The position numbers and the translations under genes are program-made. From positions 124,001 through 188,000 of the forward strand of contig NZ_JAOCQF010000001.1 in the NCBI RefSeq assembly GCF_025380365.1: DNA of 64,000 nucleotides, written 5' to 3'. The first letter of the stretch is position 1. Each line of letters opens with the position of its first letter. The notes below the pieces were generated by a model. The model was not told the origin of the DNA. It did not search any database and saw only the letters and a list, made by a program, of their open reading frames with translations. This stretch comes from Albidovulum sediminis (GTDB lineage: Bacteria > Pseudomonadota > Alphaproteobacteria > Rhodobacterales > Rhodobacteraceae). Below are positions 52,158-63,339 of this stretch, in pieces.

Positions 52158-53204
52158 TCAGGATTGCGTTATCCCCACGTCTGCACCTTCGCCCAGGGCC
52201 TGACGGAACCGCGCGGGCGTGGTTCCGGCCGTGCGGCGGAACGACCGCTCGAACGCGCTGCGGTCGGAATAGTCGATCCTGAGCGCGATCTCGTCGATCG
52301 AGAGGCTGGGGACCGTCAGCAGATTGCGCGCGACCTCATGCCGGCAGGTGCCGAGGATGGAGGCGTAGCTTGCATGCTCCTCGCTCAGGTGGCGGCGCAT
52401 CGAGCGCTCAGACAGACCGATCGCGCGCGCGATCTCCGCCTCGCCGCAGGAGCCCTGGCCAAGGTTGCGCACGATCTCGTTGCGCACGCGCAGCGGCAGC
52501 GGCAGCGACCGGTCGCGCAGGCGCGCGCAATGCAGAAGCCGGTCCGCCTGTCCCTGAAAGCGCGACCTGTCGCCGCCCGACAGCGGCAGCGACAGAAGCC
52601 GGGCGGGAAAGCGCATGGTGTTCTCGCTTGCGCCATGCACCACCTGGCATCGCATGTGGAAGCCATAGCTGTCGTCGCTGGCGTGCGGCGCGTGCTCGGT
52701 TGCCACGGCGGTGGGGCGCCAGCCCGGACCGGCCGCCCGCTCCACCAGCGAGGCGATGATGCCGAGCGTGAATTCGGCATCCTGGGAACGGGGCCAGATG
52801 CGCGGGTTGAGGATGCGGTAGGTCACCACCGCCTCGTCGTCGCGGCACTCCAGCGTCATGACCGAGTCGCTCTGGATCACCGCGAAGGCGTTGCAGAAAA
52901 GCCGGATGGCGGCGCGCACGTCAGGGGCGGCCAGAACCGTGTCGCCGAACGGGCCCAGAAGCCCGAGGTCGAACTCCCGTCCCGCCAGCCAGCCGAAGAA
53001 CCCGTGCCCGTAGCGGCGCGCGGCGTTCTGCAGGAAGCCGACGAAGGCGGCCAGCGAGATCATCACCTCCTCGCCCTCCGAACGCGCATCGCTGCGCGGT
53101 GCGCGCAGAAGATCCTCAATATCGGGAAGGGAAACGGCGGCCTCGCGCAGAAGCGCGCAAGGACCGGCCAGGCTGCTGGCGACGATCAACGCATCCTTTG
53201 GCAT
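52158..53204 (-). CDS. qhpR: AraC-family regulator of the qhp operon
   Basis: A 348-residue AraC/XylS regulator, divergent from qhpG. The first 230 residues form the AraC-binding-like effector domain; the C-terminal ~100 carry two HTH motifs (GEAEIARAIGLSERSMRRHL, then IDEIALRIDYSDRSAFERSF, followed by RTAGTTPARFRQ). In Paracoccus denitrificans, QhpR activates the operon when an amine substrate such as n-butylamine is present. The 186-bp gap to qhpG contains two copies of TTTGGCCGG, one part of a 16-bp element also found before the acyl-CoA ligase gene. Family is certain; the qhpR name rests on context. Confidence 0.9.
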   Translation of the reverse strand: MPKDALIVASSLAGPCALLREAAVSLPDIEDLLRAPRSDARSEGEEVMISLAAFVGFLQNAARRYGHGFFGWLAGREFDLGLLGPFGDTVLAAPDVRAAIRLFCNAFAVIQSDSVMTLECRDDEAVVTYRILNPRIWPRSQDAEFTLGIIASLVERAAGPGWRPTAVATEHAPHASDDSYGFHMRCQVVHGASENTMRFPARLLSLPLSGGDRSRFQGQADRLLHCARLRDRSLPLPLRVRNEIVRNLGQGSCGEAEIARAIGLSERSMRRHLSEEHASYASILGTCRHEVARNLLTVPSLSIDEIALRIDYSDRSAFERSFRRTAGTTPARFRQALGEGADVGITQS

Positions 53205-53247: not shown

Positions 53248-53256
53248 TTTGGCCGG
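53248..53256 (+). promoter_or_regulatory. Upstream partial copy of the candidate QhpR box
   Basis: TTTGGCCGG, identical to the first nine bases of the full box at 53313, lies 65 bp upstream of it (about six helical turns) and 44 bp from the qhpR start. It could be a second half-site for activation or for control of qhpR. Confidence 0.35.
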
Positions 53257-53312: not shown

Positions 53313-53328
53313 TTTGGCCGGAATTGTC
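53313..53328 (+). promoter_or_regulatory. Candidate QhpR box upstream of qhpG
   Basis: TTTGGCCGGAATTGTC, 63 bp before the preferred qhpG start. The same 16 bp occur at 61486-61501 before the acyl-CoA ligase gene. The sites lie in the two non-coding gaps where a shared activator would act. Confidence 0.55.
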
Positions 53329-53390
53329 ATGTTCTTTCGTGGCGGTCCTGCAAGACTTTGCCGATGCCCATGGAGGGGAGGCCATCGGCG

Positions 53391-54710
53391 GTGCTCAGGG
53401 ACCGGTACGACATCGTCATTGCGGGGTGCGGGCCAGCGGGTCTGAGCTTTGCCCTGCGCGCCGCGCGACAGGGCGCGCGCGTCGCCGTGGCGGGGTTGCC
53501 GGCGCCCGGTCCGCGGGTCGAGGGCGCCTCGGCGCGGGTCGCGGCGCTCCTGGCCGAGATCGGGCTCGACATCGCGATCCTCGGGCCGCGGCTGGCGCGG
53601 GCGGTGTCCTGGCCCGGCCTCACCTCGACGGAGAACGGCGAGCATCTGATCGACAGGCAGCGCCTGGATGCGGCGCTCCTCGACCTCGCGCGGGAGGCGG
53701 GGGTGACCTTCGTGCCGGCGGGGGTGCGCCGGCTTGACATGCGTCAGCGCGCGATCGTGCTGGATGGCGGCGCCCTTTTGGCGGGCGGCCTGGTGGTCGA
53801 GGCCCGGGGCCGCCGCGCGCCGGTCGGCCGCGGCCGCCGCCGGGGCCCCGCGACGGTTGCGGTCGCGGGCGCGGTGCCGCGGGGCGAGGGCGCGCCCGGA
53901 AGCCGGGTTGCGGCGGGGCCCTGCGGCTGGCTTTGGCATGCGCGGCCCGTTTCCGGGCCGGACTGGGTGCAGATCGCCGTAGATGCCGCCGACCTTCGGG
54001 AGGAGGGCGTTGCGACGCTCTGGCAGACGCTCACGGGTGGGCTGCCGCTGCCGCAGCAGCAGCGCATGACGGGGTGCGAATTGCGCCTGTCGCGGCCCGA
54101 CCTCGATCCCGGCTGCCTTGCGCTGGGCGATGCGGCGGTGGCGATGGACCCGCTGTCGGGGCACGGCCTTTTCTGGGCGCTGGGTTCCGCGCTGGCCGGT
54201 TTGCCGATGGCGCAGGCGATGCTGTCGGGCGAGGACGGGCTTGCGCGCCGCTTCCACCGTGAGCGGGTGGTGGAAACCTTCTACCGGCAGGCCCGCATCG
54301 GCCGCGATTTCCACGCGCTCGCCGCACCCGCCTTCGGCACCAGATTCTGGCAGGACCGCGCCCGCTGGCCCGATGCGCGCCCGGCCAAGGCCGCACCCGG
54401 CGACCGCTGGCTGCGCCGCGTCGTCGTGCAGGCCGGGCGGCTCGAGGAACGCGCCGTCCTTGCGACAGAGGAGGCGCCGGGCGGCGTCGCCTTTGTCGCC
54501 GGCCTCGCGCTCGAGGGGATCGCCGCGCGCCTTGCCGGGCGCCTGCTGCCGGACCTCGCGGAATTCTCCGCCCGCATCGCCCCCCTCGTCGCCCCCCTTG
54601 CCGCGCCCCGGCAGGCCGAGGCCGCCCACGCCTGGCTGACCCGCGAGGGTTTCGCCGCCAACCCCTTCCCCGGAACCATCTCTGACGCGATACAGGAGGT
54701 CACGACATGA
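53391..54710 (+). CDS. qhpG: FAD-dependent monooxygenase for CTQ biogenesis
   Basis: Flavoprotein that hydroxylates the crosslinked Trp of QhpC, giving the quinone precursor of cysteine tryptophylquinone. Near residue 12 is the FAD dinucleotide motif IAGCGPAGLSFALRAARQG. The second FAD segment is LALGDAAVAMDPLSGHGLFW, as in halogenase- and PHBH-like flavoenzymes. The start chosen is GTG at 53391 (GGGGAGG about 9 bp upstream; 439 residues). ATG 53364 is in frame but lacks a ribosome site. Its stop overlaps the qhpA start (ATGA). Confidence 0.88.
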   Translation: MLRDRYDIVIAGCGPAGLSFALRAARQGARVAVAGLPAPGPRVEGASARVAALLAEIGLDIAILGPRLARAVSWPGLTSTENGEHLIDRQRLDAALLDLAREAGVTFVPAGVRRLDMRQRAIVLDGGALLAGGLVVEARGRRAPVGRGRRRGPATVAVAGAVPRGEGAPGSRVAAGPCGWLWHARPVSGPDWVQIAVDAADLREEGVATLWQTLTGGLPLPQQQRMTGCELRLSRPDLDPGCLALGDAAVAMDPLSGHGLFWALGSALAGLPMAQAMLSGEDGLARRFHRERVVETFYRQARIGRDFHALAAPAFGTRFWQDRARWPDARPAKAAPGDRWLRRVVVQAGRLEERAVLATEEAPGGVAFVAGLALEGIAARLAGRLLPDLAEFSARIAPLVAPLAAPRQAEAAHAWLTREGFAANPFPGTISDAIQEVTT

Positions 54711-56263
54711 TACCCATCCCGCATTCCGGCCCGACGCCGGCGCGGCTCTTGCTTACGGCGGCGGCGCTTGCGCTCTCGGCGGCCGCGCCGGCGCTTGCCC
54801 AGGACGCCGGGCTTCTGGCCAAGGCCTGCGGCGACTGCCACACCGCCGCGGCGGACGGCAGCCTGAGCCGCATCTCCGGCCAGCGCAAGACGCCCGAGGG
54901 ATGGCTGATGACGATCGTGCGAATGCGCCAGTCGCACGGCGCCGACATCGACCGCGCGACCGAGGCGGAACTTGTGCGCCATCTGGCCGACACCCAGGGC
55001 CTTGCCCCGTCCGAGGCGGCCCCCTACCGCTACGCGCTGGAGAAGGACCCGAACGCGATCGAGGGCTTTGACGAGCCGCTGGGCACGATGTGCGCGCGTT
55101 GCCACACCGGCGCGCGGGTGCTTCTCCAGCACCGCACGCCCGAGGAATGGCGCACGCTGATCGACTTCCACGTCGGCCAGTTCCCGACCATCGAGTATCA
55201 GGCGCTGGGCCGCGACCGCGAGTGGTACAAGATCGCCTCGACCGAGGTGACGGATTACCTCGCCGCGGGCCAGCCGCTCGAGACCGAGGCCTGGACCGCC
55301 TGGCAGGCCGCCGACAAGCCCGCCGTGGCCGGCGACTGGGTGGTGCTGACCACGCTTCCCGACGCGGGTCAGGCCTATGGAAGGCTGACGGTCACGGGCG
55401 ACGCCTCGCCCTATCAGGTGGCCGGAAGCCTGACGCTGGCCGACGGGTCGAACCGCCCCGTCACCGGACAGATGAACCTTTACACCGGCTACGAATGGCG
55501 CGCGACGCTCGACATCGGCGGGCAGAGCTACCGGCAGGTGCTGGCGCTCGACGGGGCGGGCGGGATCGACGGGCGGCAGTTCCTGGTCGCGCAGGACAGT
55601 CTGGGCGGGCGGCTGACGGGCGTTCGGGCCGACGCGGGCGCGCGCGTCCTCGGCACCGTGCCCGAAGCGGTCGCGGGGCTGTCCGGCGCCGTGCAGGTGG
55701 TCGGCGCCGGGCTTGACGGGCTGACGGTGGCGGGCGCCACCGCCGAGGGCCTTCAGGCCAACGACTTCGGCGCGACGGTGACGCTGGGCGCCGAGGCGCA
55801 GGGCCTTGCCACGCTTTCGGCGGGCGACAGCAGCGTCGGCGTCGCGCTTTACACTGCGCCCGACCGGCTGACGGTGGAGCCCGAGTTCACCATCGCCCGC
55901 GTCGGCGGCGGGTCGGACAACGGACCCGCGGCGGTGCCCGCGCATTTCAGCGCGGTGGGCTGGCTGAACGGGCCGGACGGGGCGGCGGGAACCGAGGACG
56001 ACATCCGCATTGGCAGCCTTTCCGCCGAATGGTCGACCTCGGACGCCAACGAGACCGCGGCGATGATGCAGGACGCGGCCTATGCCGGAACGCTCGACCC
56101 CAATGGCCTGTTCACGCCTGCGGTCGCCGGGCCGAACGCGGAACGGCCCTTCTCCACCAACAACGCGGGCGATCTGACGATCACCGCGAAGGCAGGCGGG
56201 CTGGAAGCCTCGGGGCGGCTGATCGTGACCGTCCAGCGCTTCATCGACCCGCCGCTGCGCTAG
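54707..56263 (+). CDS. qhpA: Quinohemoprotein amine dehydrogenase alpha subunit (diheme)
   Basis: Periplasmic electron-transfer subunit of the enzyme that oxidises primary amines to aldehydes. 518 residues: a signal peptide (LLLTAAALALSAAAPALAQ), an N-terminal domain with two c-type heme sites, CGDCH at 41-45 and CARCH at 129-133, and three C-terminal beta domains characteristic of the QHNDH alpha chain. Electrons pass from the quinone of QhpC through the two hemes to an external cytochrome or copper protein. GGAGG precedes the ATG, which overlaps the qhpG stop. Confidence 0.95.
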   Translation: MIPIPHSGPTPARLLLTAAALALSAAAPALAQDAGLLAKACGDCHTAAADGSLSRISGQRKTPEGWLMTIVRMRQSHGADIDRATEAELVRHLADTQGLAPSEAAPYRYALEKDPNAIEGFDEPLGTMCARCHTGARVLLQHRTPEEWRTLIDFHVGQFPTIEYQALGRDREWYKIASTEVTDYLAAGQPLETEAWTAWQAADKPAVAGDWVVLTTLPDAGQAYGRLTVTGDASPYQVAGSLTLADGSNRPVTGQMNLYTGYEWRATLDIGGQSYRQVLALDGAGGIDGRQFLVAQDSLGGRLTGVRADAGARVLGTVPEAVAGLSGAVQVVGAGLDGLTVAGATAEGLQANDFGATVTLGAEAQGLATLSAGDSSVGVALYTAPDRLTVEPEFTIARVGGGSDNGPAAVPAHFSAVGWLNGPDGAAGTEDDIRIGSLSAEWSTSDANETAAMMQDAAYAGTLDPNGLFTPAVAGPNAERPFSTNNAGDLTITAKAGGLEASGRLIVTVQRFIDPPLR

Positions 56264-56273
56264 GGAGGACCGG

Positions 56274-57707
56274 ATGGGATACCTGTTCTACCAACCGCAG
56301 AACGCGCACCGGGTCGAGGTCGAGGGGCGCAACCTCCTGTTCCACATCCCCACCACCTCGCTTTTCGAGATCGACAGCCTCGACGCGGCAGTGATCGACG
56401 CCTTCGCCCAGACGGGACGGGCGGACGCCGACGCGATCCGCTCGCTCTTCCCCTCGGCGGAGCCTTCGGACATGGCGCGCCGCATCCAGGGCCTTGTCGA
56501 TCTGGAGATCCTGACTGACGGGCGGGCGCCATCGCCCGAACGGCCGCCGGTCAAGATCACCCAGTTCCCGCTGACGACCATGGTGCTGAACGTCAACACC
56601 GGCTGCAACCTGTCGTGCACCTACTGCTACAAGGAAGACCTCGACACCCCGTCCAAGGGGCGCCGCATGGCCTTCGACACGGCGGTGCGCTCGATCGACC
56701 TGCTGCTGAAGGAAAGCCCCGACCAGAAGACCTATAACATCGTCTTCTTCGGCGGCGAGCCGTTGTCGAACCTCGCGCTGATCCGCGAGGTGGTGGAGCA
56801 TGCCGAGCCGCGGTTTGCAGCCCTTGGCAAGGCGGTCAACTTCACCCTGACGACGAATGCCACGCTTCTGAACGAACAGGTCGTGGACTGGCTCGACGCG
56901 CATCGCTTCGGGCTGACGGTGTCGATGGACGGGCCGAAGGCGCTGCATGACAAGAACCGCAAGACGGTCGGCGGCAAGGGCAGCTACGACGCGGTCGCGG
57001 CCAAGGCGCGGATGCTGCTCGCGCGCTATCGGTCGCGTCCCGTGGGTGCGCGAGTCACGCTGACGGCGGGCGTCACCGCGGTCGAGGAGATATGGGATCA
57101 CCTGAAAAACGACCTCGGCTTTGCCGAAGTCGGCTTTTCGCCCGTCACCTCGGGGCCGATGACCGCCTTCAACCTGACCGGCGACGAACTGCAGGCGGTG
57201 TTCGAGGGGATGAAATCCCTTGGCCGCCGCTATCACCGCGAGGCGCTGGAGGGCCGCAACATCGGCTTTTCCAACATGCACCAGATGATGCAGGACCTTT
57301 ACGAGGGCCGGTCCAAGGCGCTGCCCTGCGGCGCGGGCGTGGGCATGCTCGCCGTCGATCATGCGGGCGAGATCAACCTGTGCCACCGCTTCACCGGATC
57401 GGACATGGAGACCTTCGGGACGGTCACGGACGGCATCGCCCGCGACCGGCTGGCGGGCTTCATCGAGGCGCGCGCCGACCGCACCGGCAAGGGCTGCGCC
57501 ACCTGCCGCATCCGCAACCTCTGTTCGGGCGGGTGCTACCACGAAAGCTATGCCCATTTCACCGACCCGCTGAAACCCGCCTACCATTACTGCGACCTCA
57601 TGCGCGACTGGGTGGATTTCGGCATCGGCGTCTACGGCGACCTGATCGCCCGCGCGCCCGAGTTCTTCCACAATGTCATCGCACCCCGGAGGGCCAACGG
57701 AAAATGA
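56274..57707 (+). CDS. qhpD: Radical SAM/SPASM enzyme forming QhpC thioether crosslinks
   Basis: Cytoplasmic maturase that links Cys sulfurs to Asp/Glu carbons in the QhpC precursor. The 477-residue protein has the radical SAM cluster CNLSCTYCY at residues 111-119 (Cys111, 115, 118). A long Cys-rich SPASM-like C-terminal region ([29 protein letters not shown]) would bind auxiliary Fe-S clusters. The first 90 residues form a RiPP-type peptide-recognition domain. GGAGGACC precedes the ATG; the stop overlaps the qhpC start (ATGA). Confidence 0.95.
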
Positions 57708-58027
57708 AACCCCTGAACCAGAAAGCCGACCGTGTGCTGAAGGCCGCGGCCGAGGACAAGATGGACGAGGTCCGCGCGATGCAGACCGTGACCGCAGGCT
57801 GCGCCACGACCTTCGATCCGGGCTGGGAAGTCGACCCGTTCGGGTCGGTCGCCGCGCTCTGCCAGCCGATGGAGGCGGACCTCTACGGCTGCTCGGACCC
57901 GTGCTGGTGGCCCGCGCAGGTGCCCGACACGATGGTGGTGCACCCCGACTGGGACGCCAACGCGACCAGCGCCGCACGCGACTGGCGCGCGCTCGGCTCG
58001 GTCTTCCCCGGCGACAGCAATACCTGA
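57704..58027 (+). CDS. qhpC: Quinohemoprotein amine dehydrogenase gamma subunit (CTQ carrier)
   Basis: The 107-residue precursor of the catalytic subunit. A leader of about 26 residues ([20 protein letters not shown]...) precedes the mature chain. Using mature numbering of the Paracoccus protein, every modified residue is present: Cys7-Glu16, Cys27-Asp33 and Cys41-Asp49 for the thioethers, and Cys37-Trp43 (in [12 protein letters not shown]) for cysteine tryptophylquinone. In the precursor these are C33/E42, C53/D59, C67/D75 and C63/W69. Modification by QhpD and QhpG occurs before export, and QhpE removes the leader. It is coupled to qhpD by ATGA. Confidence 0.96.
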
Positions 58028-58037
58028 GGTGAAAGCG

Positions 58038-59132
58038 ATGAAGACATTCCTCACCGGGCTTTCCCTGGCCCTTGCCGGGGTTCTCGCCCCCGCTTCGGGC
58101 GCAGAGGCGCGCGACCTGCTCGTGACGGTCGCCCGGCCCGACAACCTCTATGTCATCGACGCGGCCAGCCGCACGGTGATCAAGGACTGCACCATCGGCG
58201 CGGAGCATCCCTCGCCGGGGGTCACGGTGATGTCGCCGGACGGGCGCATCGCCTACATGCTGCTCGACCGCTGGCAGAACGTCGTCGGCGTCAACATCGA
58301 GACCTGCGAGCGGGTGTTCTTCGCCCGCCAGTCGGAGGAGAAGGTGATCCGCCGCTCCATCGCCTCGCTGGCGGTGTCGCGCGACGGGACGCGGCTTTAC
58401 ACCGTGCGCAACCCGGTCCGGCACCATCCGGACCACTACGAGGTGATGGAACCCGAGTTCGCCGTCTTCGACACCGCCGCGGGCCTTGACGCAAAGCCGC
58501 TCGCGATCCATCCCGCGCCGCGCCGTTCCACGCTGATGGCGGCCGACGACGCCGGCACGGTCTATATCGCGGGGCACGACGTCTTTGCCGTCAATCCTGA
58601 GACCGGAGACACCAGCGTGGCGATCGCCAACGCCAACTGGGACCGCCCGACCTATTCGGGGCCGGACGTACTCGCCTTCTGGCCGATCGGGACGCAGAAC
58701 GACGAGTTCATGCTGCTCTACTCCGCCGCCGTCTTCACCGACGAGAAGAAGGAGGAGATGGCCGATTTCGTCTGGGGCTACGAATCCGTCGACCTGAAGA
58801 CCGGCGAGACCGAGATCAAGGACTTCGCCTCGTTCGAGGTCATCATGTTCTCGGCGGTGCGCAACCCCAATGCGGAGAACGAGCTTTACGGCGTCTACAC
58901 GCAACTCTCCAAGCATGACGTGGCCACGGGCGAGCTGATCAAGCGGGTGGACCTGCCGCATACCTACTACGTCATCAACATCTCCTCTGACGGCAAGGAG
59001 GTCTACGTCGGCGGCACCAACAGCGACATCGGCGTCTACGACACCTCGACGCTTGAGCGCATCGGCGAGATCCAGCTGCCCTCGGGTGGTGACATGAGCG
59101 TCAGCACGCTTCAGATCGTGCAGGCCGAATGA
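58038..59132 (+). CDS. qhpB: Quinohemoprotein amine dehydrogenase beta subunit (propeller)
   Basis: Periplasmic seven-bladed beta-propeller subunit that packs against QhpC and forms part of the substrate pocket. 364 residues with a signal peptide (MKTFLTGLSLALAGVLAPAS) and repeated propeller strands such as RPDNLYVIDAASRTVI, VMSPDGRIAYML and NISSDGKEVYVGG. The ATG at 58038 is chosen: GAGGTG, which overlaps the qhpC stop, lies 6 bp before it. GTG at 58029 would sit inside that ribosome site. The end overlaps the qhpF start (ATGA). Confidence 0.94.
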   Translation: MKTFLTGLSLALAGVLAPASGAEARDLLVTVARPDNLYVIDAASRTVIKDCTIGAEHPSPGVTVMSPDGRIAYMLLDRWQNVVGVNIETCERVFFARQSEEKVIRRSIASLAVSRDGTRLYTVRNPVRHHPDHYEVMEPEFAVFDTAAGLDAKPLAIHPAPRRSTLMAADDAGTVYIAGHDVFAVNPETGDTSVAIANANWDRPTYSGPDVLAFWPIGTQNDEFMLLYSAAVFTDEKKEEMADFVWGYESVDLKTGETEIKDFASFEVIMFSAVRNPNAENELYGVYTQLSKHDVATGELIKRVDLPHTYYVINISSDGKEVYVGGTNSDIGVYDTSTLERIGEIQLPSGGDMSVSTLQIVQAE

Positions 59133-60808
59133 CCGCCCTGCCGGTCACCGGCGGGGCGCTTCCGGCCCGGATGCGGCGCGGATTGATCCGGCGCGCCTTC
59201 GGGTCGGAATGGCTCTTCGACCGGCTCCGCCCCTATCTGGGGCGGGGCCTTCTGCTTCTGGCGCTCGGCCTTCTGGCGGCGGGGCTGGCGCTGGTTCCGC
59301 CCTGGCTTACCAAGCTGGTGATCGACCGCGGGCTGGTGGCGCGCGACCCGGACGCACTGGTCACCTGGGCGCTGGCGCTCTTCGGCGTGGGCTTCGTGGC
59401 GTTGATGCTCTCGGCCCTGTCCAACGTGCTTTACATGCGCGCCTCGGTCGCGATGCTGGCCGACCTCCGGCTGTCGTTGGCGCGCCTCGTGCTGGGGCGC
59501 TCGCCGCTCTGGCGGTCGGGCCAGCAGGCGGGCGAGATCATGGCGCGCCTCGACGGCGACGCGGGCGAGGTGCAGCAGTTCGCCTTCAACCTGCTGCTGA
59601 CCGGGGCCTCGGCGCTGGTCCGGCTTCTGGGCGGCGCGGCGCTGCTCTTCGCGCTGAACGCCCCGCTGGCGCTGGTCGCGGTGATGCTGGCCCCGCTCGA
59701 ATTGCTGTTCCTGACCTGGGCCCGCCCGCGGACCGAGGCGGTGACGCGCGCGGCCCGCGCTGCGCGCGGCGATCTGGCGGCACGGCTGACCGAGATGATC
59801 CAGGGCCTGATGCCGATCCAGGCCGCGGGCGGCGAGCGGGCGGTGATGACCGGCCTCGGCCGCGCGCAGGAAAGCCTCAACCGCGCGCTTCTGGGCGCGC
59901 AGGTCTGGGGCGAGGTCACGCGGACGGTGCCCGCGACGCTCGCCGCGCTGGCGCGCGCGGGCGTGGTGCTGATGGGGGGCTTCGCGGTCATCGAGGGGAC
60001 GCTGTCGCTGGGCGGCTTCGTCGCCTTCCTTGCCTACCTTGCCTTCCTGACCGGGCCGGTGCAGTCGCTGCTTGGCCTCTGGCAGGCGCGCGTCCGCGTC
60101 ACCGCCGCGCTGGAGCGGATCGACGGCCTGCGCCGCGATCCGCCGGGCGAGCCGCGCTGGCCCGAGGTGCCGGTGCCGCTGCCCGCGGGGGGGGGCGCGC
60201 TGGCCTTCGAGGATATTCCCCTTGCCGATGGCGGGCGCCTGAGCGCGGCGATCCCGGAGGGCACGAAACTGCGGATCGCGGGGCCGAGCGGGGCAGGGAA
60301 GTCCACGCTTCTTGCCCTTCTTCAGCGTCACGCGGACCCGGCGCGGGGGCGGATCCTGCTCGACGGCGCGGATATAGCGACGCTTTCCCGCGCCGACCTG
60401 CGCGCCGCGGTGATGCTGGTGCCGCAGCGGCCCTTCCTGCTGTCGGGCAGCGTGGCGGAAAACCTCGCCCTCTCCGCGCCCGATGCGGGGCGCGAGGAGA
60501 TGGAGCGCATGCTCGCGCTCGTCGGTCTCGACGGGCGGCTGACGCCCGAAAGCCGGCTGGGCGAGGACGGGCTGACGCTGTCGGGGGGCGAACGGCAGCG
60601 CCTCTGCCTGGCCCGCGCGCTTCTGGCGCCCTTCCGCGTCCTCATCCTCGACGAGGCGCTGTCGGAGGTGGACCCGCCGGCCGTGCGCCGGATCGTCGCC
60701 GCCATCGACGCGGGCTGGGGCGGCTGCACCCGCATTGTGGTGAGCCACGGCGGGGCCGAGGCCCTTGGCGCGTTCGACCGGGTGATCGAGGTCGGGGGCA
60801 GGGCGTGA
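59129..60808 (+). CDS. qhpF: ABC transporter for QhpC export
   Basis: A 559-residue fused transporter: an N-terminal exporter membrane domain of about six helices (e.g. LLLALGLLAAGLALVPPWL), then a nucleotide-binding domain with Walker A GPSGAGKST (385-393), signature LSGGERQRL (from residue 484), Walker B VLILDEALSE (Asp508-Glu509) and switch His540 in VVSHGG. In the Paracoccus system QhpF is the membrane step that delivers the crosslinked QhpC, which lacks a Sec or Tat signal, to the periplasm. Start overlaps qhpB, end overlaps qhpE. Confidence 0.93.
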   Translation: MTALPVTGGALPARMRRGLIRRAFGSEWLFDRLRPYLGRGLLLLALGLLAAGLALVPPWLTKLVIDRGLVARDPDALVTWALALFGVGFVALMLSALSNVLYMRASVAMLADLRLSLARLVLGRSPLWRSGQQAGEIMARLDGDAGEVQQFAFNLLLTGASALVRLLGGAALLFALNAPLALVAVMLAPLELLFLTWARPRTEAVTRAARAARGDLAARLTEMIQGLMPIQAAGGERAVMTGLGRAQESLNRALLGAQVWGEVTRTVPATLAALARAGVVLMGGFAVIEGTLSLGGFVAFLAYLAFLTGPVQSLLGLWQARVRVTAALERIDGLRRDPPGEPRWPEVPVPLPAGGGALAFEDIPLADGGRLSAAIPEGTKLRIAGPSGAGKSTLLALLQRHADPARGRILLDGADIATLSRADLRAAVMLVPQRPFLLSGSVAENLALSAPDAGREEMERMLALVGLDGRLTPESRLGEDGLTLSGGERQRLCLARALLAPFRVLILDEALSEVDPPAVRRIVAAIDAGWGGCTRIVVSHGGAEALGAFDRVIEVGGRA

Positions 60809-61458
60809 TCCGCGTGGCGCTGATCGACGGGCCGCTTGCCGCGGACCATCCCGCGCTCGGCGCGCGCAACCTGCTGCGGGCGGGGGATGCGGCGGGGCCC
60901 GAGGGCACGCACGCCGCCGCCATGGCCGCCGCGCTGCTGGCGGGCTGTCCGGGCGCGCGGATCGACAATCTCGTCGTCTTCGGCGGGGGCCTGACCACCA
61001 CCGCGGAATGCGTGGCCTCTGCGCTTGAGGCTGCGGAGGGGGCGGCGCTTGTCCTTTGCGCGTTTGGCATGGCACGCGCCGACCCCGGCATGGCGGCGGC
61101 CGTCGCGCGCCTTCTGGACGCGGGCGCGCTGGTGGTCGCAGCCGCCCCCGCCCGTGGCGCGCCGGTCTACCCGGCCGGGTTCGCGGGGGTGGTTTCGGTT
61201 CAGGGCGATGCGCGCTGCGGGCCCGGAGACTGGTCGCGGCTTGACCTTCCGCAGGCGCGGTTCGGCGCCTGTCCCGCGCTCGCGGGTCACCCCGGCGTCG
61301 GCGGGGCGAGCGTGGCGGCCGCGCATTTCGCCGGCATCGTCGCGCGCCGGATCGGGGCGGGCGAGGACCCCGCCGGGGTGATCGCCGAACTGGCGCGCAC
61401 CGCCCCCCATCAGGGCCGGGAGAGGCGGGGAATCGCGCCTGCGGCGCCGCCGGGCTGA
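60805..61458 (+). CDS. qhpE: Subtilisin-like leader protease for QhpC
   Basis: A 217-residue S8-type serine protease that removes the QhpC leader. The triad is readable: Asp8 in VALIDGPLAADHP, His36 in GTHAAAMAAALL and Ser169 in VGGASVAAAHFAG. The protein is much shorter than secreted subtilisins and has no signal peptide or prodomain, which fits an intracellular processing enzyme. The start is GTG at 60805 in a GTGA overlap with the qhpF stop. It is the last gene of the qhp operon. Confidence 0.92.
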   Translation: MIRVALIDGPLAADHPALGARNLLRAGDAAGPEGTHAAAMAAALLAGCPGARIDNLVVFGGGLTTTAECVASALEAAEGAALVLCAFGMARADPGMAAAVARLLDAGALVVAAAPARGAPVYPAGFAGVVSVQGDARCGPGDWSRLDLPQARFGACPALAGHPGVGGASVAAAHFAGIVARRIGAGEDPAGVIAELARTAPHQGRERRGIAPAAPPG

Positions 61459-61485
61459 GGCGCGGCCGGGCTGCCCGCCGGAGAG

Positions 61486-61501
61486 TTTGGCCGGAATTGT
61501 C
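61486..61501 (+). promoter_or_regulatory. Candidate QhpR box upstream of the acyl-CoA ligase gene
   Basis: TTTGGCCGGAATTGTC, identical over 16 bp to 53313-53328 and on the same strand. It lies 27 bp after the qhpE stop and 123 bp before the ligase ATG. The perfect repeat in two non-coding gaps flanking one operon argues for a common regulator. Confidence 0.55.
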
Positions 61502-61623: not shown

Positions 61624-63339
61624 ATGCAGCCAGACGATACCGGCTTTCCGGCAGGCGGGCTTTCAGAGGTCAGGGGCGCGCTGGACGAGCCGCTGATCGA
61701 GGCGACGATCCCCGCGCTGCTGGCCCGGACCGCCGCGCGGATGGGGGATGCGCCGGCCCTTGTCTTTGCCGCGCAGGGCATCCGCCGCACCTGGCGCGCG
61801 TTCGCGGAGGAGGTCGACCGCCTCGCCGCCGGCCTTGCCGCGCTGGGGCTGGCCAAGGGCGACCGCGTCGGCATCTGGTCGCCCAACCGCTACGAATGGC
61901 TCCTGACGCAGTTCGCGACGGCCCGCCTGGGTGTCATCCTCGTCACCATCAACCCGGCCTACCGGGTGTCGGAACTGGACTACGCGCTCCGGCTGACGGG
62001 CTGCGCGGCGCTGGTCCTCAGCCCCCGCTTCAAGGGCTCCGACTATGTCGCCATGCTGGCCGAGGTCGTCCCCGAATTGCCGGCGTCCGCGCCCGGCGCG
62101 CTGGCGTCGGCGCGGCTCCCCGCGCTGAAGCATGTGATCGTGATGGGCGAGGAACGCCACCCCGGCACCTGGGCCTTCGACGAGATCCTGGCCCGGGGCG
62201 AGGGGGCGGATGCAACCGCACTCGACCGGATCGGCGCGACGCTTCGCCCGGAAGACCCGATCAACATCCAGTTCACCTCGGGCACCACCGGCCTGCCCAA
62301 GGGGGCGACGCTGACCCACCGCAACATCGTCAACAACGCCCATTTCGTCACCGGCAGGCTGAAGCTGACCGGGGCGGACGGGCTCTGCATCCCGGTTCCC
62401 TTCTACCACTGCTTCGGCATGGTCATGGGCACGCTCGGCTGCGTGACCAAGGGCGCGCGGATGATCGTCCCGGCCGAGGCGTTCGACCCCGTCTCGGTCC
62501 TCTCCACCGTCGAAGCCGAGGGGGCGACGGCGCTTTACGGCGTGCCCACGATGTTCGTCGCCATGCTGGAACACCCCGATTTCGCGCGCTACGACCTTTC
62601 CACCCTGCGCACCGGGATCATGGCGGGCGCACCCTGCCCGATCGAGGTGATGAAAAGGGTGCAGACGCTCATGCACATGCGCGAGGTCACCATCGCCTAC
62701 GGAATGACCGAAACCAGCCCGGTGTCGTTCCAGTCCGCCACCGACACGCCGCTGGAAAAGCGCGTGGCCTCGGTCGGGCGCATCCACCCGCATGTCGAGG
62801 TCCGCATCGTGGACGAGGCGGGGCGCACCGTGCCGGTGGGCGAACAGGGCGAGTTGCTGACGCGCGGCTATTCGGTGATGAAGGGCTACTGGGACGACGC
62901 CGTGCAGACCGCGAACGCCATCGACGCCGAGGGCTGGATGCACACCGGCGACCTCGCGCGCATCGACGCCGAGGGCTACTGCAACATCACCGGCCGGGTG
63001 AAGGACATGATCTGCCGGGGCGGCGAGAACATCTATCCGCGCGAGATCGAGGAGTTCCTCTATACCCATCCCGACGTCAGCCAGGTGCAGGTCTTCGGCA
63101 TTCCCGACGACCGTCTGGGCGAGATCGTCTGCGCCTGGATCGTGCCGAAGCCGGGCGCCGCGCCGTCCGAGGCTGCGATGCGCGACTTCTGCAAGGGCCG
63201 CATCGCGCATTTCAAGATCCCCGCACTCGTCCGCTTCCGCGACAGCCTGCCGATGACCGTCACCGGCAAGCCGCAGAAATACCTGATGCGGGACGCGATG
63301 ATTGCCGAACTCGGTCTTTCGGTCGCACAAACGGCCTGA
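61624..63339 (+). CDS. AMP-dependent acyl-CoA ligase
   Basis: A 571-residue member of the acyl-CoA synthetase family. Motifs: P-loop [33 protein letters not shown] and [32 protein letters not shown], and the C-terminal catalytic Lys in [10 protein letters not shown]. It activates a carboxylate through an acyl-AMP; chain length is not readable, though this subgroup often takes short to medium chains. GGGAGGAG precedes the ATG. Its place right after qhpE with a shared upstream element suggests it activates the acid formed from the amine-derived aldehyde (inference). Confidence 0.92.

Follow-up and report, generated by a model that had tools for sequence, protein, structure and literature searches.

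A 16-bp element at both ends of a qhp operon as a probable operator of the AraC-type regulator QhpR

The 16-bp element TTTGGCCGGAATTGTC, which lies upstream of qhpG and again upstream of an acyl-CoA ligase gene at the two ends of a quinohemoprotein amine dehydrogenase (qhp) operon, is very probably the operator of the divergently encoded regulator QhpR and is called the qhp box here. Box 1 would drive the qhp operon and box 2 the ligase gene, binding and induction being predicted from the sequence. The first-pass annotation had placed both exact copies correctly on the plus strand (Table 1), but its argument that a chance 16-bp repeat is unlikely was worded too strongly, since the GC-rich window (the whole stretch of 64,000 nucleotides analysed) contains 72 repeated 16-mers, whereas 20 order-2 Markov sequences contain 15.7 on average. 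Because repeated 16-mers are so common in the window, the case stands on conservation and not on repetition.

The two boxes and their genomic setting

Within the operon, the equivalogs for the alpha and beta subunits, the radical SAM maturase, the protease and QhpG all exceeded their cut-offs, while the gamma subunit was identified by eye. The qhpR gene is divergent from qhpG; its product passed the NF049968 cut-off and the qhp genes adjoin it. As previously annotated, both copies of the element are situated in apparently non-coding gaps at the two operon ends. Box 1 lies between qhpR (ATG 53204, minus strand) and qhpG, whose start is likely the GTG at 53391 behind GGAGGGGAGG, 62 nt from the box. 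An alternative qhpG start, TTG 53304, would place box 1 inside the open reading frame and was judged unlikely, by eye only. Box 2 lies in the 165-bp gap that separates the stop codon of qhpE (61458) from the ligase start, ATG 61624; this start stands behind AGGAGAGG, 122 nt away from the box. A consensus promoter was not found near either box.

Table 1. Features of the qhp locus in the window.
Feature	Position	Strand	Remarks
qhpR, AraC-type regulator	52158..53204	-	NCBIfam NF049968 337.6 bits, cut-off 250; Arabinose_bd + HTH_18
qhp box 1	53313..53328	+	probable QhpR operator of the qhpG-A-D-C-B-F-E operon; matrix 26.2; same place in relatives
qhpG, flavin-dependent monooxygenase	53391..54710	+	NF049967 345.6 bits, cut-off 240; start codon inferred
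qhpA, quinohemoprotein amine dehydrogenase alpha subunit	54707..56263	+	TIGR03908 500.3 bits, cut-off 274.35
qhpD, radical SAM maturase	56274..57707	+	TIGR03906 712.7 bits, cut-off 453
qhpC, gamma subunit, 107 aa	57704..58027	+	within the 57092-58027 frame; overlaps the qhpD end; identified by eye
qhpB, beta subunit	58029..59132	+	TIGR03907 386.9 bits, cut-off 223.2
qhpF (presumed name), ABC transporter	59129..60808	+	ABC_membrane + ABC_tran
qhpE, subtilisin-like protease	60805..61458	+	NF049966 173.1 bits, cut-off 165
qhp box 2	61486..61501	+	probable QhpR operator before the acyl-CoA ligase gene; matrix 26.2; similar arrangement in G1367 and G1382
acyl-CoA ligase	61624..63339	+	NF009233 (fatty acid CoA ligase) 838.9 bits, cut-off 832; AMP-binding + AMP-binding_C

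The possibility that the 16-mer is scattered through its own genome was checked and not borne out: the 4.29-Mb genome (G000) contains two exact copies only, both flanking qhp, as well as two matches with two mismatches, the backwards-read control giving one match. Allowing up to three mismatches, three matches were detected in the window, whereas 100 shuffles averaged 0.33 and never gave more than 2. With a matrix built from the sites of relatives, the window being left out, the next best site of the window after the two boxes scored 12.0. Identity between the surroundings of the two copies stops at the edges of the 16-mer.

Conservation of the box and its association with QhpR

At a threshold of at least 15 bits, this matrix detected a site in the qhp promoter at 20 of 21 loci possessing QhpR and the qhp genes (leave-one-out) and at all 14 such loci added later, which are partly non-independent as Leisingera and Paracoccus occur in both sets; five of ten Paracoccus and two of 14 Leisingera records were examined. 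The element is thus conserved before the qhp operons of relatives where QhpR is present, the second point that the first-pass annotation had left to be verified. The L051 promoter reached only 13.3 and did not beat its own shuffles. When the 16-mer alone was used without the matrix, its best or tied-best match was in the qhp promoter in all 22 rows listed (L016 and L048 being the same contig), with ties at a place outside the promoter in L042, L044, L050 and L051. Contigs reached twice, as recognized by their length (L013=L119, L014=L083, L016=L048, L040=L042), were counted once in the promoter counts.

Sixty-two qhp loci showed no QhpR by tblastn (thresholds 33% identity and 700 bases, within the examined stretch); none of them had a site of at least 15 bits. 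These loci are mostly gamma- and betaproteobacterial and several are short contigs, so lineage, contig shortness and regulator are partly confounded in this comparison. In the Cupriavidus locus L202, likewise without a QhpR hit, no site exceeded 10.5. Six class-level qhp loci (L190-L195), two of them short contigs, in which QhpR was not seen in the examined stretch, were left out of all three promoter counts (20/21, 14/14 and 62). Three of them (L193, L194 and L195) lack a strong site at qhp, L195 having one of 15.2 elsewhere, while the 20.0 site of L192 is not located at qhp.

The QhpR model score alone is insufficient to assign a QhpR, since 20 of 26 loci over the NF049968 cut-off show no qhp genes in the examined stretch. 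In these 20 loci no site of at least 20 bits was found, and five contain one of at least 15. The first recognition helix, S-x-R-S/T-L/M-R/H-R, is present in all 31 box-bearing QhpR proteins shown, but in only one of the 14 regulators shown from QhpR-like loci without qhp (14 of the 20 were aligned, and L271 and L281 overlap).

An exact pattern scan of 390 genomes of the order gave matches in 14, against three matches in the backwards control. Three of the 14 (G000, G130 and G023) have a match at qhp and the other 11 one match each; each of the latter overlaps with an open frame of at least 80 aa, which says little as the DNA is GC-rich. The matches in L158, L160 and L164 are possibly intergenic. 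Thirteen genomes carrying both QhpR and qhp genes yielded 31 matches, 12 exact and 19 with one mismatch, against three in the backwards control. Eleven of the 12 exact matches lie inside the qhp cluster. The one-mismatch matches comprise six in the cluster, including one before the G1367 ligase, and 13 away from it; seven of the latter were checked by homology search with the window genes only, and the G1353 ones fall within open frames.

Architecture of the box

AraC-family activators possess two helix-turn-helix units, bind phased pairs of sites and are positioned against the -35 region. The qhp box is a site of about 16 bp with two sub-boxes about 10 bp apart, as in AraC-type operators. Its internal repeat, WTTGKC / WTTGTC, has a spacing of 10 bp, which is accompanied by high mean scores at offsets of 10, and would suit a single AraC DNA-binding domain whose two helix-turn-helix units occupy successive major grooves. 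In relatives, the boxes are single, arranged as a 21-bp tandem, or form inverted pairs spaced 23, 32-35 or 44-45 bp. Across 18 promoters, the inverted spacings gave a Rayleigh R of 0.92 for a 10.5-bp turn. This helical phasing would correspond to AraC-type behaviour, QhpR being the obvious putative binder. What separates the QhpR orthologues from the AraC family in general is the use of one element family as single, tandem and inverted sites. A tandem copy at +21 bp occurs in seven promoters picked by eye after the sequences had been seen, with 8.7 bits or more in six; over all 27 scored sites this offset ranks only fifth. The +21 copy of L019 scores 0.0 yet retains TGTCCGG.

While a second half-site in helical phase is present in part of the relatives, the boxes of the window are single. 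No well-scoring second half-site was found at offsets between -44 and +59 (excluding the nearest 8 bases). With both strands considered, the next best site between qhpR and qhpG reached 2.0 and that in the surroundings of box 2 -4.8. A partial box of 9 bp, TTTGGCCGG, with a score of -1.4, begins 65 bp before box 1, at 53248. Inspection of 24 sites by eye for a -10 element at a fixed distance behind the box was not convincing overall, and no plain one follows box 2 of the window. In G1367 and G1382, 24 bp separate the ligase box from a downstream TATCCT, possibly a -10 element, which would set this box against the -35 position.

A close parallel comes from Pseudomonas, where ArgR, a regulator of the AraC/XylS type, recognizes the ARG box TGTCGCN6GNAA in tandem with 5 bp between (PMC10963909, available part). 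Both boxes are 16-bp half-sites, and the 21-bp tandem register is the one seen in Leisingera and others. The reverse complement of the window box with one flanking base, YGACAATTCCGGCCAAA, also has G2, C4 and A15A16 of the ARG box (by eye). On the other hand, sequence and regulon differ, the window has single boxes, and the available part of this paper describes no inverted phased pairs for the ARG box such as the qhp boxes of relatives form.

Extension to the ligase gene and alternative explanations

The proposal that the regulon reaches the ligase gained support from other genomes. G1367 and G1382, which represent two further species within a single genus, have a putative operator about 104 bp before the orthologous ligase gene, the first of a ligase-aldehyde dehydrogenase pair that is not behind qhp on the same strand. 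Box pairs precede an aldehyde dehydrogenase gene at four of five examined Paracoccus plasmid loci (L197, L198, L199 and L201), and in Leisingera thetidis aldehyde dehydrogenase and ligase genes stand close behind qhp, which would likewise connect the two steps. Of 80 qhp loci, 28 have a ligase homologue of at least 54% identity at a distance of no more than about 10 kb. The ligase-box link is not universal among qhp loci: L018, L119, L083 and L260 have a ligase near qhp and no strong box before it, aldehyde dehydrogenase and ligase of the last two being divergent from qhpR and without a box.

It is conceivable, though unlikely, that only box 1 is a QhpR operator and that the ligase gene is reached by read-through from qhp, box 2 being a relic or a minor internal site. 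Since no recognisable terminator was found in the gap between qhpE and the ligase gene, read-through is possible; the L. thetidis ligase lies on the qhp strand behind a second regulator and the aldehyde dehydrogenase, and in L042, the nearest relative, the second box is located between araC2 and aldehyde dehydrogenase and does not adjoin the ligase. However, box 2 is a perfect copy in unrelated flanks, suggesting a separate constraint on it, and boxes are also present before the G1367 and G1382 ligases, which are not located behind qhp on the same strand. It is quite improbable that another regulator common to these alphaproteobacteria binds the box. QhpR binding was deduced from sequence, the distribution of the box partly follows lineage, and L191 (a pair of 17.3 and 12.0 before qhpG) and L190 (a single site of 18.0, some 155 bp upstream of the part of qhpG that was matched) have sites where QhpR was not seen in the examined stretch. 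Yet the box tracks QhpR-bearing qhp loci, including those of Caenispirillum (L097) and an unassigned proteobacterium (L067), whereas the Azospirillum qhp loci L060 and L078 have neither box nor QhpR in the 21 kb examined. The concentration of exact matches in the qhp cluster of the 13 QhpR genomes also argues for QhpR.

A core promoter with sigma-54 or sigma-70 hexamers instead of an operator is very improbable. Some boxes with their flank read TTGACA on the reverse strand, and TTGGC...TTGTC slightly resembles a -24/-12 element, but a core promoter is at odds with tandem and phased inverted duplicates and would not be expected to track QhpR. The sigma-54 consensus has GG and GC 12 bases apart; by our reading, the box separates its GG and GT steps by 10 bases and lacks a C at -12, and a sigma-54 promoter was rejected because of the spacing. 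A chance repeat, for which the many repeated 16-mers of the window could be cited, is hardly credible in view of the conservation at the qhp promoters of relatives and the ligase box in two other species.

With QhpR as the binder, an amine inducer would cause occupation of box 1 and start transcription of qhpG-A-D-C-B-F-E, while binding to box 2 would start that of the ligase gene, whose product would load the acid derived from the aldehyde onto CoA. In other species, this step would be coupled through the position of the genes behind qhp or through boxes ahead of aldehyde dehydrogenase. According to the available parts of PMC7876137, qhp genes including qhpR are needed for amine-induced expression and the regulator is n-butylamine-inducible. 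The QhpR-controlled qhp operon of Paracoccus denitrificans (NF049968; PMC7876137), which is reported to be amine-inducible, shares regulator family and operon genes with the window but differs in gene order. The analysis proposes an operator sequence for QhpR; neither such a sequence nor a link to a ligase was found in the literature searched, as far as its text was available, and Nakai 2014 may give one.

These arrangements suggest that amine oxidation and the activation of its product with CoA belong to one regulon, so that a single amine signal could switch on the whole route. The fate of the aldehyde, oxidation to the acid followed by CoA metabolism, thereby becomes testable. Beyond the window, we are inclined to think that the QhpR lineage controls the whole amine-to-acyl-CoA route and that its operator was recruited repeatedly by downstream genes, while changing among single, 21-bp tandem and phased inverted forms. 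The recruitments would comprise the ligase (genus of the window, G1367/G1382), aldehyde dehydrogenase (Paracoccus) and perhaps araC2 (L042). If true, this would be a regulon rewiring that keeps the pathway coupled, and the variety of wiring around a fixed pathway would provide a compact comparative system for regulon change in bacteria.

Beside the pattern-scan counts, the genome of the window also gave 15 sub-threshold matches with one mismatch. Minor regulon members may be among its weaker matches.

Conservation of the 16-mer at qhp promoters

The 16-mer is present in two exact copies in the 4.29-Mb genome. As claimed by the first-pass annotation, both are located in gaps of the window, one between the divergent genes qhpR and qhpG, the other between qhpE and the acyl-CoA ligase gene (table below). 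Since the flanks are unlike and identity ends at 16 bp, the repeat does not resemble a recent duplication. The annotation also held that a chance repeat is improbable, but this argument from the repeat itself was too strong, as the window (69% GC) contains 72 repeated 16-mers, where 20 order-2 Markov sequences have 15.7 on average. What distinguishes the qhp box from the other repeats is its conservation.

Genome contigs were searched with a QhpD alignment and the best 80 loci of a longer list were analyzed. QhpR was present in 18 of them. Together with three QhpR-bearing qhp loci from family genomes (L015, L018 and L019), 21 loci provided 26 boxes for a position weight matrix (scores in bits), from which the window was excluded. 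Each window copy scored 26.2, the next best site of the window 12.0. Conservation ahead of the qhp operons of relatives was borne out: in leave-one-out scoring, the qhp promoter reached at least 15 in 20 of the 21 loci (L051 scored 13.3), exceeded 50 letter shuffles in 20 and surpassed the remainder of the locus in 19, the exceptions being L051 and L042. In 14 later-fetched loci that carry both QhpR and qhp, drawn from plasmid records and additional genomes, all promoters scored at least 15 and above all 50 shuffles, and 11 surpassed the remainder of the locus. In the three exceptions (L198, L199, L201), a higher-scoring site precedes an aldehyde dehydrogenase gene. The 62 qhp loci among the best 80 without a QhpR match revealed no site of at least 15 (maximum 14.8). 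In this comparison, lineage is partly confounded with QhpR presence, since most QhpR-less loci belong to gamma- or betaproteobacteria, and a number of them are short contigs. Six additional class-level qhp loci with no QhpR in the stretch examined gave mixed box results. Of 20 loci fetched with the QhpR model and devoid of qhp genes, none had a site of at least 20, and five had sites of at least 15.

Box architecture and QhpR as candidate binder

QhpR, QhpG, QhpA, QhpD, QhpB and QhpE are equivalogs above the NCBIfam cut-off, and the ligase is a fatty acid CoA ligase family protein. QhpR comprises an Arabinose_bd and an AraC-type DNA-binding domain. The box consensus, (A/T)TTG(G/T)CCG(G/A)AA(A/T)TGTC, contains two similar sub-boxes spaced by 10 bp. 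While the window boxes are single, seven promoters (L043, L048, L049, L050, L052, L018, L019) possess a second copy at +21 bp, scoring at least 8.7 in six and 0.0 in L019. Divergent qhpG-qhpA and qhpR-aldehyde dehydrogenase promoters harbor inverted pairs, each box oriented toward its own gene, with start-to-start distances of 23, 32, 33, 35, 44 or 45 bp in 18 promoters examined. Relative to a 10.5-bp turn, the Rayleigh R was 0.92 over these promoters, a value that overstates independence as they are related, and 0.84 on the six distinct distances (p about 0.015). Spacing in register with the DNA helix is more in keeping with protein binding than with an RNA structure.

The first recognition helix S-x-R-S/T-L/M-R/H-R was found in all 31 aligned QhpRs accompanied by boxes and in one of 14 QhpR-like regulators from loci lacking qhp. 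The 16-mer is a real regulatory element and very probably the operator of QhpR, as predicted; QhpR would act as an activator binding the box in response to amine. The qhp box would belong to a known kind, the AraC-type operators that serve a small regulon for one pathway. PMC7876137 reports that amine-induced expression requires the qhp genes, qhpR among them, under a regulator inducible by n-butylamine. No QhpR operator sequence was found in the literature searched, including passages of PMC8172795; the original study by Nakai (2014) may describe one.

The bases flanking the inverted boxes (L119, L099, L015) vary among species and are palindromic within each, as if the arms had been corrected against each other.

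Proposed reach of the regulon to ligase and aldehyde dehydrogenase

When 13 genomes carrying both QhpR and qhp were scanned for the pattern, 31 sites matched. The qhp cluster contains 11 of the 12 exact matches; of the other 19, which have one mismatch, 13 are located outside it. The proposal that the regulon extends to the ligase was supported by comparison among genomes. In genome G1367, a one-mismatch box lies about 104 bp upstream of a ligase orthologue (71% identity to the window ligase), the first gene of a ligase-aldehyde dehydrogenase pair adjoining qhpG. Its congener G1382 shows the same box-ligase arrangement, and in both TATCCT follows the box after 24 bp. Four Paracoccus plasmid loci (L197, L198, L199, L201) have a second inverted pair between qhpR and aldehyde dehydrogenase, which is missing there in a fifth (L200). 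In L042, the nearest relative, a second box between a second AraC-type regulator and aldehyde dehydrogenase outscores the qhp-promoter site. In Leisingera thetidis, qhpE, the second regulator, aldehyde dehydrogenase and an AMP-binding protein are annotated consecutively on one strand, overlapping at one junction and separated by 15 and 71 bp at the other two. Of the best 80 loci, 28 have a ligase homologue (identity at least 54%) no more than about 10 kb away from qhp. On the other hand, no box accompanies the aldehyde dehydrogenase and ligase genes that diverge from qhpR in L083 and L260 (best scores -4.7 and 0.4), the ligase downstream of qhpE in L018 has only a weak site (8.2), and that of L119 has no box upstream. 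Overall, the ligase has good comparative support as a putative second target of QhpR.

Several relatives have the second AraC-type regulator in the interval separating qhp from aldehyde dehydrogenase/ligase, a position where the window lacks it; a cascade from QhpR to this regulator is possible.

Coordinates of the features
Feature	Location	Remark
qhp box 1	53313-53328	window, plus strand
qhp box 2	61486-61501	window, plus strand
Acyl-CoA ligase gene	61624-63339	window
Second AraC-type regulator	L042:15142-16095	AraC_binding_2 + HTH_18
Second AraC-type regulator	L196:15227-16222	AraC_binding_2 + HTH_18
Box-like site, G078 contig C43	L183:2240-2255	
Box-like site, G078 contig C43	L314:5603-5618	9.5 kb from the other site
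Inverted boxes with flanks	L119:8260-8320	
Paracoccus contaminans qhp region	L200:9085-14138	annotated qhpA split or short

Unusual records and further box-like sites

Going by the qhp genes alone, mislabelling or contamination is possible for two records: L048, titled Nocardioides marinus, has a qhp region resembling Leisingera loci, and L104, titled a Klebsiella pneumoniae MAG, carries qhp genes unexpected for that name. In Paracoccus contaminans, the qhpB and qhpF stretches are annotated with short hypothetical genes only; given these and the state of qhpA, the operon may be decaying or contain sequencing errors. The two sites of genome G078 lie near a QhpR-like regulator (NF049968, 154.6 bits, under the cut-off of 250), a PRK07529-type acyl-CoA synthetase and an aldehyde dehydrogenase whose closest match is benzaldehyde dehydrogenase MdlD; a paralogous aldehyde/acid regulon may be present here. 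In genome G002, CTGTCCGGAAATATC or CTGTCCGAAAATATC accounts for 29 of 39 pattern matches, a dispersed box-like repeat.
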